Source: Campylobacterales bacterium
GTDB lineage: Bacteria; Campylobacterota; Campylobacteria; Campylobacterales; Sulfurimonadaceae
Assembly: GCA_026390075.1 (NCBI GenBank)
Contig: JAPLGP010000027.1
Coordinates: forward strand, 1 to 44,197
DNA: 44,197 nucleotides
Direction: 5' to 3'
Made by a program: the position numbers and the translations under genes
In this document: positions 12,546-16,599 of the stretch, piece by piece
How the letters are laid out: each line of letters begins with the position of its first letter
How positions within the stretch are numbered: the first letter of the stretch is position 1
Notes under the pieces: generated by a model
What the model was told of the DNA's origin: nothing
Seen by the model: the letters and a program-made list of their open reading frames with translations, nothing else
The model's database searches: none

Positions 12546-15500
12546 TTATTCTTCTTTTTCTTCATCGTTTGAGAGCAAATGATAGGGAAGCAATAAAGCT
12601 CTTTTAATTATATTTAAAGGGGCTACAACTATATCCTCTGCGATTAAAGATTTAACCTCTGGATTATCTAATGCACCCGTAACATTAACGGTAGTTGAGA
12701 GTGTCTTTCCATCAAATAAAATATAACTTACAACGGGAATATTTAAAATACTACTAGCTAAATCAGTTTTTAAGTTTAATAGTAAATTTATATTATTTGT
12801 ATTTAAGTTAGCTGTTCCTTTGCCTAAAATATCAATCTCTTTAGAATCAAGATATATATCACTAATAGTAAAGAGATTATTTTTAGAATTGAAGTGCATG
12901 TAAGCACTATTAACATTTAACCCATGTGAGCTATATCCAGGAAGTGAAAATGTTACAAGGGATGGTATCGTATTTACAAATGCAAGTACATTATTTAAAA
13001 TTTTATAATCTAAGACTAGAGTGTTTTTTATATAAAATAAACCATCATACTCTTCTGTTGTACCATCTACTGAAAAATCAAACGAACCACCTTTAAACTT
13101 TGATAAAACAAACAAATTCTGCATAAAAATATCATTAAAATTTTCTCCATAAACATGAAGCTCACCATTTTGTACATCTATTTTTGCATTTCCTTTGGCA
13201 TGTGTAAAATGAGCTGCAGTTATTTTGTCATGATATTCCAAATAAAAAGAGTCTGATAATACATGTCTATCTTTACTAATATATAAATAGGAGTTTTTAG
13301 CATTCAATATCACATTTTTACTCTTAGAACCCTCAGAATTTTCAGAAGTGCTAGAACTGTTTGTATCAGGTTGATTGTGTACAAGGTCAATGAGTGAGTT
13401 CACATTCACACCAACTTCTTTCATTTTAATTCTAATATCTTTATCTATAGTGATTTTTAGGACATCATTATTGATATTTAAGGATGTTTTTTTTGTTGTA
13501 TTATTTATTTTACCTTCGATACTATAATCTTCAACTGGTTCATTGTCTTTTACGAGTAGTTTATATGGATGTTTTATATTTGCTACAAACTTTGTATTGT
13601 TGTCACTAAAATTCTTAGTTAAGTTAAAATTACCCGTCGTTACATTAAAATTTTGCAGTATTTTCGAATTTTGTGCCAATTTATCTATAGATTTTATATC
13701 TAAATTGATTTTTTCGTTATTTTGCGTATAGTTAATATCCAAATCTGGAATATTTATTTTTATATTTTTATCAGATTTTGCTATATATAAATTTATTTTT
13801 TCATCACTTGCAAACATTTCTCCTATACTTTTGTTTGAAATATTTAACTCTTTTAGTTCTATAAAGCCACTATTTTCTTGAAAATCATATTGTCCAAGAA
13901 GCTTTGCTTTGGCGATATTATCAATGTTTGCAGATGAAGATTTTAGAGTGAAGTTATTTTTTTCTATATCCATTGTTGGTTTATCTAATCCACATGCCAA
14001 GCCATTGAAAGTAAATCCAATTTGATTGTTTGCACTGAGTATAATTTTTTTGTCATAAAGAAGATTTATAGAACTGTTTGGTTGTGATAATTTGATTCCT
14101 TCATATGTGAAAGATGAAAAGTCTAGGTTTAAATTTACTTTATTTGTTTTAAGTTCGGATGTGCCAGAGACATAAGCTGAAGCGATGTTTGGTATATTTA
14201 CTTGTGTTCTTGGCATGTGGATAATGAGTTCTTCTAGGCTAAAAGGTAGAGACATCTTCGCTATATTAATTACTTTATCTTTATAGAACCAAGTTGAATT
14301 TGCTACATCAATAGTGTCTTGTTTTGGCGCTATAGAATAGGTAACATTAAGAGGTTCTTTGTTATTGAGTGAAATATTAAAATCTTTAAATGCAATATTT
14401 TTAACATTAAAATCGATTTTACCTTCTCCCTTATGAGCGTCATAACTTACATTCACTTTTGTAGTGGCTATATCTTTATACTGTGCCAACATATCGCTTA
14501 TCTTCACATCGTAATTATTAAGTAAAACGGAAACATCCGATACATCTATTTTTAATCCTAAATAGTCAAAATTGGCTTTTTTTGTAAAAAAATCACCATT
14601 TGCTTCAACTCCTATAGTTCGTAAATTAACGGTCAATTTGAGATTTGCTTTTGTTGTTCCATTATTTTGTAAAAAGGGAACATTAATTTTGTAAGTGCTT
14701 AGAATATTTAATATATTTTTATCTAGTTTTGCATCAAAAAGTAAATAGAGAGTGAGTAGTTCTTCTTTTTGCGTAAAGTCTATTTTTAACCAACTTTTAT
14801 CTAAAGCATTATCATAAGAATAGGCTTGTTTAGGATATATATAAAGCACTCCATCTTTGAACTTTAATTCTGTCGTTTTACTATGAACAGCGTCTAAATT
14901 TTGATTGTATTTATAGGATAAATTATATCCAGTCGCTGCTACGGAAATATTCTTATACGCGGCGTCTAAATTTTTATATTCTAACCAACCAAACGCAGAT
15001 TCTAAAGTTGCATAAGACATCTCAATAGCCTCATACGCCCAATATTTAACATCTGGATGTAAATCAAGTAATTTCATTGTGTAATTGATATTTTTAATAT
15101 TTTTTAGTGAGTTTACTTTGTAAAAAAGCTTATCTTTATTTGCTAAAGTCAGTACATTCAAAGATATATCATTATTTATATTTACATTTAAAGATGTTGC
15201 TAGTTCTAAATTTTGATTGTCAACTATTATATTGCCAGAAATCGTGATTTTTCTTTTTAAATCTATAAATTCATTGATTTGTAGATTTAATAAATTTGAT
15301 TCAAAAAAAAGTGAACTTTTAAGTGAAAATTCTGGTGAAGAAGCTATAAAAAATCCATTTTCTCCTTGCTTATAATTGAATGAGGCGGTAATATTGTTGA
15401 ACATTATTTTATCAATAACTATCCCTTCAAACCAGTTACCCAGAATAGGAATTTGTTGCAATACTTTATTTATTTCTTCAAAATCTATAGATGAGTTATT

Positions 15501-15725
15501 TGTTTTATGAATTATCTCTGTTTCTTTTATAGAAATATTTATTTTTTCGTTCCACTTAATGTATAATTGCTTGATTTCAACATTTGGAAGCACTATATTT
15601 TCTAGATATATTCCATTTTGTAAAATAATAAAAGTTAGGAAAAACAGTAAAAATATGAAAGATAAAAAACTGACGATAGTAGAATGGATTTTTGATATAG
15701 CTTTAATAATTATTTTGTCGTTCAT
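12546..15725 (-). CDS. large AsmA/YhdP-like envelope protein
   Basis: The 1059-residue protein has one N-terminal membrane anchor (~15-36), then a long beta-rich, Asn/Ile/Lys-rich periplasmic body. The last ~150 residues resemble the C-terminal region of the AsmA-like superfamily (YhdP, TamB): a GxLxxLNxxxPxLVTF-like segment, then LPGYSSHGLNV, then IPVVSYILFDGKTLSTTV, ending LLLPYHLL. Known members form lipid-transport bridges between the inner and outer membranes; that role is inferred here. No other start with a membrane anchor is available, and AGGTAG precedes ATG 15725. Its first 24 codons are antisense to the first 24 codons of mltG. Three copies of the repeated word or its near form lie inside (13197, 13990, 14212). 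Confidence 0.75.
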   Translation of the reverse strand: MNDKIIIKAISKIHSTIVSFLSFIFLLFFLTFIILQNGIYLENIVLPNVEIKQLYIKWNEKINISIKETEIIHKTNNSSIDFEEINKVLQQIPILGNWFEGIVIDKIMFNNITASFNYKQGENGFFIASSPEFSLKSSLFFESNLLNLQINEFIDLKRKITISGNIIVDNQNLELATSLNVNINNDISLNVLTLANKDKLFYKVNSLKNIKNINYTMKLLDLHPDVKYWAYEAIEMSYATLESAFGWLEYKNLDAAYKNISVAATGYNLSYKYNQNLDAVHSKTTELKFKDGVLYIYPKQAYSYDNALDKSWLKIDFTQKEELLTLYLLFDAKLDKNILNILSTYKINVPFLQNNGTTKANLKLTVNLRTIGVEANGDFFTKKANFDYLGLKIDVSDVSVLLNNYDVKISDMLAQYKDIATTKVNVSYDAHKGEGKIDFNVKNIAFKDFNISLNNKEPLNVTYSIAPKQDTIDVANSTWFYKDKVINIAKMSLPFSLEELIIHMPRTQVNIPNIASAYVSGTSELKTNKVNLNLDFSSFTYEGIKLSQPNSSINLLYDKKIILSANNQIGFTFNGLACGLDKPTMDIEKNNFTLKSSSANIDNIAKAKLLGQYDFQENSGFIELKELNISNKSIGEMFASDEKINLYIAKSDKNIKINIPDLDINYTQNNEKINLDIKSIDKLAQNSKILQNFNVTTGNFNLTKNFSDNNTKFVANIKHPYKLLVKDNEPVEDYSIEGKINNTTKKTSLNINNDVLKITIDKDIRIKMKEVGVNVNSLIDLVHNQPDTNSSSTSENSEGSKSKNVILNAKNSYLYISKDRHVLSDSFYLEYHDKITAAHFTHAKGNAKIDVQNGELHVYGENFNDIFMQNLFVLSKFKGGSFDFSVDGTTEEYDGLFYIKNTLVLDYKILNNVLAFVNTIPSLVTFSLPGYSSHGLNVNSAYMHFNSKNNLFTISDIYLDSKEIDILGKGTANLNTNNINLLLNLKTDLASSILNIPVVSYILFDGKTLSTTVNVTGALDNPEVKSLIAEDIVVAPLNIIKRALLLPYHLLSNDEEKEE

Positions 15726-16599
15726 GTACTACCTAAATAAGCCTATAAATACCTCTAAAGTCATATATATACCTCAAGGTTCAATTAGTCAGATTATAAC
15801 ACAAATGCGTCTGGAAAATTATAATGTATGCAAACTTGATGCTTTACTTTTAAGAATCATAGGCATTCCGCAAAGTGGTTGGGTAAACATAGGAGTAACT
15901 CAAAGTACAAAAGCAGATTTTTTATATAAATTAACGACCGCAAAAGCGGCTCTTCAGGATATAACACTTATTCCTGGAGAGACAACTTATATATTTTTAA
16001 ATCAACTCTCAAGTAATCTGAAACTCGATAGAGAAAAATTACAAAAAGAGTATGAGTTATATACTTCGCAAAAAGAGGGTGCTTTTGTTCCAAACACATA
16101 TAAAATGCCTCTTGGTATTACGGAAAAAGAACTTATAAGAATTTTGTTAGAAACTTCATCCACTCAGATGAAAGACTTATCTATAAAATTTTTTGGAAGT
16201 TTTAACGAAACGAAATGGTTTCGATATGTAGCAATTGCATCAGTTATTCAAAAAGAATCAGCGAATGTTGAAGAGATGCCTCTTGTAAGTTCTGTAATTT
16301 TTAATCGACTGAATAAAGGTATGAAGTTACAAATGGATGGAACTCTTAACTATGGAGAATTTTCACATACTAAGGTAACACCAGAGCGTATAAGGGAAGA
16401 TACGACAGTTTTTAATACTTATAAGAATTCGGATATCCCATCAATTCCTGTCTGTAATGTTAGTTTTGATGCCTTAAGAGCAGCAGTATTTCCTGCTAAA
16501 ACAGACTATCTTTATTTTATGAAATCTAAGGAAGGAACACATGATTTCTCATGTAACTATTCTACACATTTAACCAATATAAAGCGTGCTACAAAATGA
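15655..16599 (+). CDS. mltG: endolytic peptidoglycan transglycosylase MltG
   Basis: MltG (YceG family) cleaves nascent glycan strands at the inner membrane. Starting at ATG 15655 it has 314 residues: a cytosolic stub MKDKKLTIVEW, a membrane helix (~10-27), a LysM-like region with GSISQIITQM, then the catalytic domain. The catalytic Glu is Glu201 in ASVIQKES. Downstream motifs are FNRLNKGMKLQMDGTLNY and the C-terminal YLYFMKSKEGTHDFS. The frame stays open upstream to 15559, but ATG 15655 gives the expected N-terminus; its ribosome site (TAGGA at 15636) is distant. The 5' end overlaps the divergent AsmA-like gene by 71 bp. Confidence 0.9.
   Translation: MKDKKLTIVEWIFDIALIIILSFMYYLNKPINTSKVIYIPQGSISQIITQMRLENYNVCKLDALLLRIIGIPQSGWVNIGVTQSTKADFLYKLTTAKAALQDITLIPGETTYIFLNQLSSNLKLDREKLQKEYELYTSQKEGAFVPNTYKMPLGITEKELIRILLETSSTQMKDLSIKFFGSFNETKWFRYVAIASVIQKESANVEEMPLVSSVIFNRLNKGMKLQMDGTLNYGEFSHTKVTPERIREDTTVFNTYKNSDIPSIPVCNVSFDALRAAVFPAKTDYLYFMKSKEGTHDFSCNYSTHLTNIKRATK

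Follow-up and report, generated by a model that had tools for sequence, protein, structure and literature searches.

The divergent genes mltG and asmA of this Campylobacterales genome form what we regard as a true and old dual-coding head-to-head overlap, in which start signals of each gene are written in codons of the other and mutual interference between the two is the most likely consequence (probability about 0.8). In the window, i.e. the whole stretch of 44,197 nucleotides that was analysed, the mltG open reading frame (ORF; 15655..16599, plus strand, 314 aa) opens with the ATG at 15655, and a YhdP/AsmA-like gene, called asmA here (12546..15725, minus strand, 1059 aa), opens with an ATG (15723..15725) located within mltG codons 23-24. 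The two genes share 71 bp (15655..15725, both strands) in the 123:213 register, in which codon position 1 lies opposite position 2 and wobble lies opposite wobble. The mltG product matches the Pfam family YceG/MltG (PF02618; E=1.2e-51, 176.3 bits compared to a curated cut-off of 32.4), and the AsmA-like product matches YhdP (PF13116; E=3.7e-23, 81.9 bits compared to a cut-off of 46), covering that profile from position 534 onward. Both proteins combine the family domain with an N-terminal membrane anchor evident from hydropathy, as is characteristic of MltG and YhdP/AsmA-like proteins. MltG terminates glycan strands, and YhdP/AsmA-type proteins are involved in envelope lipid transport.

The 71 bp overlap had been proposed from the letters of the window and its ORFs only, and the ORFs with their starts at 15655 and 15725 are confirmed. 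AsmA cannot start earlier in the window, since a TAG lies in frame two codons upstream of its ATG, and use of the in-frame mltG starts found upstream of 15655 (ATG and TTG, 96 nt and 84 nt before it, respectively) would only make the overlap longer. Later starts lose the anchors, as the sequence-only reading had argued: the next mltG starts (TTG at 15715, ATG at 15724) sit close to the end of the mltG hydrophobic core, and the next AsmA start, a GTG 132 nt downstream of the ATG at 15725, is located beyond the core of AsmA. The further proposal that each anchor is largely encoded by the overlap is correct for mltG, whose best hydrophobic 17-mer (15676-15726, from residue 8) lies nearly completely within the overlap, but not for AsmA, whose best 17-mer (15674-15624, from residue 18) lies there only in part, the overlap encoding the N-terminal tail and the first part of the anchor.

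Conservation of this arrangement was examined across the phylum, where mltG was detected by profile search in 396 of 397 sampled genomes. A search of named genomes at the protein level yielded 99 relatives, from which 80 loci were kept, with titles including Sulfurimonas, Sulfuricurvum, Sulfurovum, Arcobacter, Campylobacter, Helicobacter and others. Combined with the profile-search loci, the 119 regions that were fetched cover all 68 genus labels of the 397-genome sample. A divergent AsmA-like ORF is present near mltG in 188 of the 207 loci examined, window included, and 184 of these divergent pairs are distinct and spread over 12 of 13 family labels. Another 18 loci, examined as a second batch, provided 15 more divergent pairs (12 in f5, and one each in f14, f15 and f18). 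Anchors were placed by hydropathy and a motif pattern, and all counts reported here are raw locus counts which ignore shared ancestry. Substitution and codon usage analyses made use of a set of 52 Sulfurimonas-type loci, required to have an mltG ATG, an AsmA start 71 bp away and no mltG stops, so that start-codon conservation and stop counts in this set are partly by construction. The only ATG-bearing locus dropped by these filters, L192, has no stop in the first 40 residues.

Long divergent overlaps have a doubtful reputation. Divergent overlaps are described as strongly under-represented, with 123:213 as their commonest register in the tables given (PMC2174442), and 75 divergent overlaps of more than 60 bp analysed in 2008 were, by that report, all classed as misannotations (PMC2478687), in keeping with the rarity that the sequence-only reading had assumed. 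Going by this published base rate of 75 out of 75, one or both genes could start downstream and the overlap would then be a chance open frame. Small indels would be expected to randomize the relative frames of two genes that simply adjoin. The register of mltG and asmA towards each other is identical in 181 of 184 distinct divergent pairs (185 of 188 before removal of repeats) and in all 15 pairs from the second batch. Control frames were random, both for mltG relative to the downstream isocitrate dehydrogenase gene (28/22/22) and for asmA relative to the converging FtsX-like gene (23/24/25), each control comprising the 72 loci in which the neighboring gene was found. The three exceptions to the common phase are L024, with asmA split into two frames, L054, in which the genes are separated, and L202, with a broken frame. 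In L202 (genome G247, f3), mltG has no start ahead of its anchor and asmA is frameshifted close to its own start, a pattern that a single indel in the shared stretch, breaking both genes, would produce.

The hydrophobic cores of the two proteins are encoded back to back, with an offset of -50 to +20 nt in 172 of 184 pairs, the 12 pairs outside this range including some in which anchors are probably misplaced. This leaves little room for the start codon and tail of either gene except opposite the other one. When the last anchor-keeping start was taken for each gene, an overlap greater than zero was obtained in 166 of the 174 pairs with both starts. The remaining 10 of 184 pairs have no usable start before the anchor in one of the two genes, which speaks for start misannotation; for mltG, no ATG, GTG or TTG precedes the anchor in 7 of 184 loci (L028, L029, L044, L106, L107, L195 and L202), possibly due to a non-standard start or a misplaced anchor. 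In L028, an ATG is found 3 nt before the expected mltG start. Among 62 related loci for which positions were projected from sequence outside the overlap, the codon expected for residue 1 is ATG in 51 for mltG and in 52 for AsmA, and the overlap measures exactly 71 bp in 54. Conservation of the overlap in relatives, which the sequence-only reading had named as a check, is thereby established, and it upholds both starts.

A different situation was noted in five loci of Helicobacter bilis type (L065, L097, L098, L099 and L144; f2 g43). Here, AsmA has a polar N-terminal extension of roughly at least 200 residues before the anchor, and the mltG frame opposite this extension is open for 341-527 nt. 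The overlap may thus be far longer in these loci, all five of which carry ATTATA in mltG as read.

The substitution record of the shared stretch bears on the same question. Third-position changes silent in mltG were classified by parsimony over the 52 loci: inside the overlap, 17 alter the AsmA frame and 130 are silent in it, compared to 750 altering and 2063 silent changes in the AsmA-strand frame along the rest of mltG, and an AsmA-altering ratio as low as that of the overlap was found in 0 of 261 other windows. As judged from this sequence comparison, the AsmA frame is shown to be under selection where the two genes overlap. A mirror-image test of wobble positions gives a weak signal for the mltG frame (40/111 compared to 2133/4114, with 103 of 1000 windows as low). 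With residue positions projected from segments outside the overlap, none of 62 loci has a stop within residues 1-24 of the mltG frame. The same antisense frame was followed along 174 other stretches of asmA, every one of which contains stops in 18% or more of 39 genomes. The corresponding counts in the 52-locus set, partly by construction, are stops in 0 of 39 genomes, and a stop-touching effect in 0 of 171 changes, compared to 585 of 8220. Stops are found in 6 of 62 extrapolated AsmA N-termini, each ahead of an in-frame ATG, which is the pattern that displacement of the extrapolation by an indel would give. Despite the published base rate and the 10 pairs without a usable start, start misannotation is rejected by the phase, selection and stop tests; with the loss of anchors from later starts also standing against it, we consider this explanation extremely improbable.

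The register itself explains how two membrane N-termini can be encoded by one stretch. With codons facing each other in the 123:213 manner, the codons of a charged tail can specify a hydrophobic anchor when read from the opposite strand, and the Lys/Asn tail of one protein faces the Phe/Leu anchor of its partner. Among the residue pairs opposed across the overlap in the 52 loci, Ile/Ile is the commonest (290 of 1092) and Lys/Phe accounts for 100, with Val/Thr, Leu/Lys and Ala/Ala among the others. The 123:213 register is stop-free in 52 of 52 loci, a set chosen without mltG stops, and stops interrupt the two remaining antisense registers in 42 and 47 of these 52 loci, respectively.

Beyond its start codon, asmA probably also has its ribosome site and -10 element within mltG. 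Codon bias in mltG columns was scored against gene-wide usage over the 52 loci. Among 116 testable columns, bias is strongest in Y26 (TAC in 52/52) and L27 (CTA in 48/52), which spell the asmA leader TTTAGGTA upstream of the asmA ATG and, in the window, are part of a Shine-Dalgarno-like TTTAGGT (15731..15737, minus strand, within mltG codons 26-28). The third rank is held by S22, opposite AsmA codon 2, and ranks 4 and 6 by I47 and I48, encoded by ATT and ATA in 52 of 52 loci each and giving TATAAT on the asmA strand. The predicted extended -10 element of asmA at this location, TGTTATAAT (15793..15801, minus strand, within mltG codons 47-49), can be compared with TGxTATAAT lacking a clear -35, the sigma-70 motif reported for Campylobacter (PMC3656092). 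Elsewhere in mltG, from codon 60 on, ATTATA is used by 31 of 228 Ile-Ile pairs. The element is less frequent in f6 (1/3) and f7 (10/18). In f5, it is found 5 nt away and in another frame, spelled by Asn-Tyr or Asp-Tyr, with TATAAT being exact in 11 of 16 loci, matched at 5 of 6 bases in two more, and not located in three.

The predicted -10 element of mltG, TATAAT (15562..15567, plus strand), lies in turn within AsmA codons 53-55, where the L54 and Y55 codons spell it on the mltG strand. Over 39 full-length loci, Y55 (TAC) and L54 (TTA) hold ranks 2 and 6 for bias among 106 testable AsmA columns, the first rank of F23 (TTC), opposite the mltG ATG, being by construction of the locus set. A TAnAAT in the same register is present in 163 of 184 pairs, compared to 98 of 1916 equal-length control stretches elsewhere in asmA (5%). 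The AsmA Leu-Tyr site could be located in 174 of 184 pairs, and reads ATTATA in 119 and ATTNTA in 156 of them; the mltG element is missing at the scanned place in f5, f6 and f13 (0/8). Both -10-like elements are present and face each other in 148 of 184 pairs, with 237 bp between their outer ends in 120 of the 148 if 237 is preferred among several TAnAAT, and in 110 without this preference. A generic sigma-70 scan that required a -35 did not list the embedded -10 elements of either gene; the promoter-like sites that it returned were at shuffle level (5 compared to a mean of 4.0). The proposal that the promoter and ribosome site of each gene lie inside the opposite gene is thus supported for both -10-like elements and for the asmA Shine-Dalgarno-like sequence, all with frozen wobble positions, but not for the ribosome site of mltG, for which the window offers no clear Shine-Dalgarno sequence and only an AGGA 14 nt upstream.

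These codons could have been kept for the proteins, namely for Ile-Ile in MltG and Leu-Tyr in AsmA, with the real promoters located elsewhere, and both residue pairs are indeed conserved. However, the codons are frozen and not the residues alone (ATT 52/52 and ATA 52/52 in mltG, TAC 36/38 in asmA), and most f5 loci keep TATAAT by means of other residues in another frame. Loci without a partner are also informative in this respect. ATTATA occupies mltG codons 47-48 in 161 of 184 pairs with an asmA partner and in 2 of 19 loci without one, the latter including a locus lacking the N-terminus (L080), one genome represented twice (L068/L171), misplaced sites (L076, L175) and possible paralogues (e.g. 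L075-L078, L081); removal of L080 and of the L068/L171 repeat leaves 2 of 17. Together with the TGn extension, the element is found in 135 of 184 loci with a partner and 0 of 19 without. The residues at positions 47-48 of mltG whose partner is absent or has moved are mostly changed (e.g. FF, VV, VI, TI, LI, VL). Protein conservation is rejected as the full cause of the promoter-like codons by codon freezing, by the changes in partnerless loci and by the f5 frame, and we find it rather unlikely that the elements owe their presence to protein function with promoters situated elsewhere.

In some genomes, absence of the partner appears to reflect loss of the gene. In seven genomes without an AsmA neighbor of the sampled mltG, the AsmA profile was found in 0 of 7, and it was found in both comparison genomes; among the six of these in which the site is readable, ATTATA is kept in one (G096), and the other five differ. 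The profile also found no match in searched genomes of f9, f16, f19, f20 and f21. This suggests loss of asmA in these genomes and in part of f4, and the coupling of mltG and asmA is therefore not indispensable. Relatives with separated genes, another kind of case to which the sequence-only reading had drawn attention, were sought and amount to one separated divergent pair and one relocated asmA, both without ATTATA at mltG codons 47-48. In the separated pair (L054), mltG codons 47-48 encode Phe-Phe (TTTTTT), Met-Asp stands in place of the AsmA Leu-Tyr motif, and a TATAAT is located between the genes. G412 carries asmA on a different contig and has Val-Val at mltG codons 47-48. Sequence comparison shows that the codons forming the asmA promoter-like element stay frozen as long as asmA is present, and that most have changed in genomes in which asmA is missing or has moved. 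Such rare losses help to separate residues that serve the promoter from those that serve the protein. In two genomes of f7 g14 (G008 and G030), the AsmA profile matched in two neighboring pieces on the same strand, one of which crosses a TAA in G030; this could be due to gene fission, a frameshift or an artefact of the search.

If the predicted elements are promoters, RNA polymerases would start at facing promoters about 210 bp apart, near 15574 on the plus strand and 15786 on the minus strand, and the region 15574..15786, as placed from the -10 positions, would be transcribed on both strands. Since the facing -10 boxes are usually 237 bp apart, the two mRNAs would be expected to share about 210 complementary nucleotides at their 5' ends, both start codons included. 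Polymerase collision and sense-antisense pairing would then cause mltG and asmA to oppose each other, and would tie the output of MltG to that of the YhdP/AsmA-type protein. Mutual interference of the two genes, which the sequence-only reading had anticipated, appears likely on these grounds. Facing promoters have been modelled to interfere in the scbA-scbR pair of Streptomyces coelicolor, in a study that also cites experiments on phage 186 (PMC3134472).

A serious rival accepts the same anatomy and differs only on function. The overlap could be a frozen accident, real but kept because separation requires duplication of the shared stretch with its signals, with negligible interference and no regulatory role. 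Constant spacing can arise if indels are rarely tolerated in the two anchors, and the loss of asmA is tolerated in some genomes, which is compatible with such an accident. The modelled interference at scbA-scbR speaks against it, as does the fact that escape is possible, as seen in L054 and G412, and yet separation occurred in only 1 of 184 divergent pairs. We would give this rival slightly less than an even chance. The more ambitious version of the interference reading, in which the shared start DNA and facing promoters have formed a phylum-wide regulatory lock since early Campylobacterota, through which glycan-strand termination and envelope lipid transport are placed under reciprocal control, is more speculative, and we find it less likely than not. 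If true, neither gene would be expressed without opposing the other. The pair also represents a simple system for asking whether facing promoters couple two envelope activities.

Compared to known divergent overlapping genes (PMC2174442, PMC2478687), which as described there share the head-to-head coding overlap and, in the tables of PMC2174442, most often the 123:213 register, the mltG/asmA pair is unusual for its length, its spread and its embedded promoter-like elements. Whereas no divergent overlap longer than 60 bp was considered real in the cases reported in PMC2478687, that of mltG and asmA measures 71 bp and is kept across the phylum sample, and the pair contradicts the published 60 bp rule through tests that are independent of start calling. 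It represents a strong counter-example to the verdict as given in that report. The scbA-scbR genes resemble it in having facing promoters and overlapping 5' ends for which collision and antisense pairing are expected, but their overlap, as described, is one of 53 bp counted from transcription starts, whereas in mltG/asmA the protein-coding sequences overlap and the -10-like elements lie in the opposite coding sequence (PMC3134472). Similarly, the excludon as outlined in PMC7154746 consists of neighboring genes with mutually antisense mRNAs, a property which is only predicted for mltG/asmA, but differs in that the coding sequences of mltG and asmA overlap as well. Both strands of one stretch are also coding in the antisense overlapping genes reported from E. 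coli O157:H7 (PMC9927249); those are novel ORFs, whereas mltG and asmA belong to known families and overlap only at their 5' ends.

Across the phylum, a single stretch of DNA specifies the N-termini of two proteins together with two promoter-like elements and no fewer than one ribosome site. If the lock reading is right, the 5'-5' overlap would be dual-coding, conserved to great depth and would contain both promoters, a combination for which no precedent was found in the literature searched. The C. jejuni counterpart of the pair is presumably Cj0529c/Cj0530. Searches of the literature for cj0529, and for mltG together with AsmA and Campylobacter, gave no match, and nothing on the mltG/asmA pair was seen in a search judged by titles and the beginning of abstracts; cj0530 is named as a periplasmic protein in published tables.

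One further frozen site was noted in mltG, distant from the overlap and close to the 3' end of the gene. The column with the fifth strongest bias is S303, and codons 302-304 (window positions 16558-16566) are nearly invariant among the 52 loci (TAT in 51, TCT in 51 and ACA in 48). On the minus strand they spell TGTAGAATA, which may represent an antisense -10-like element.
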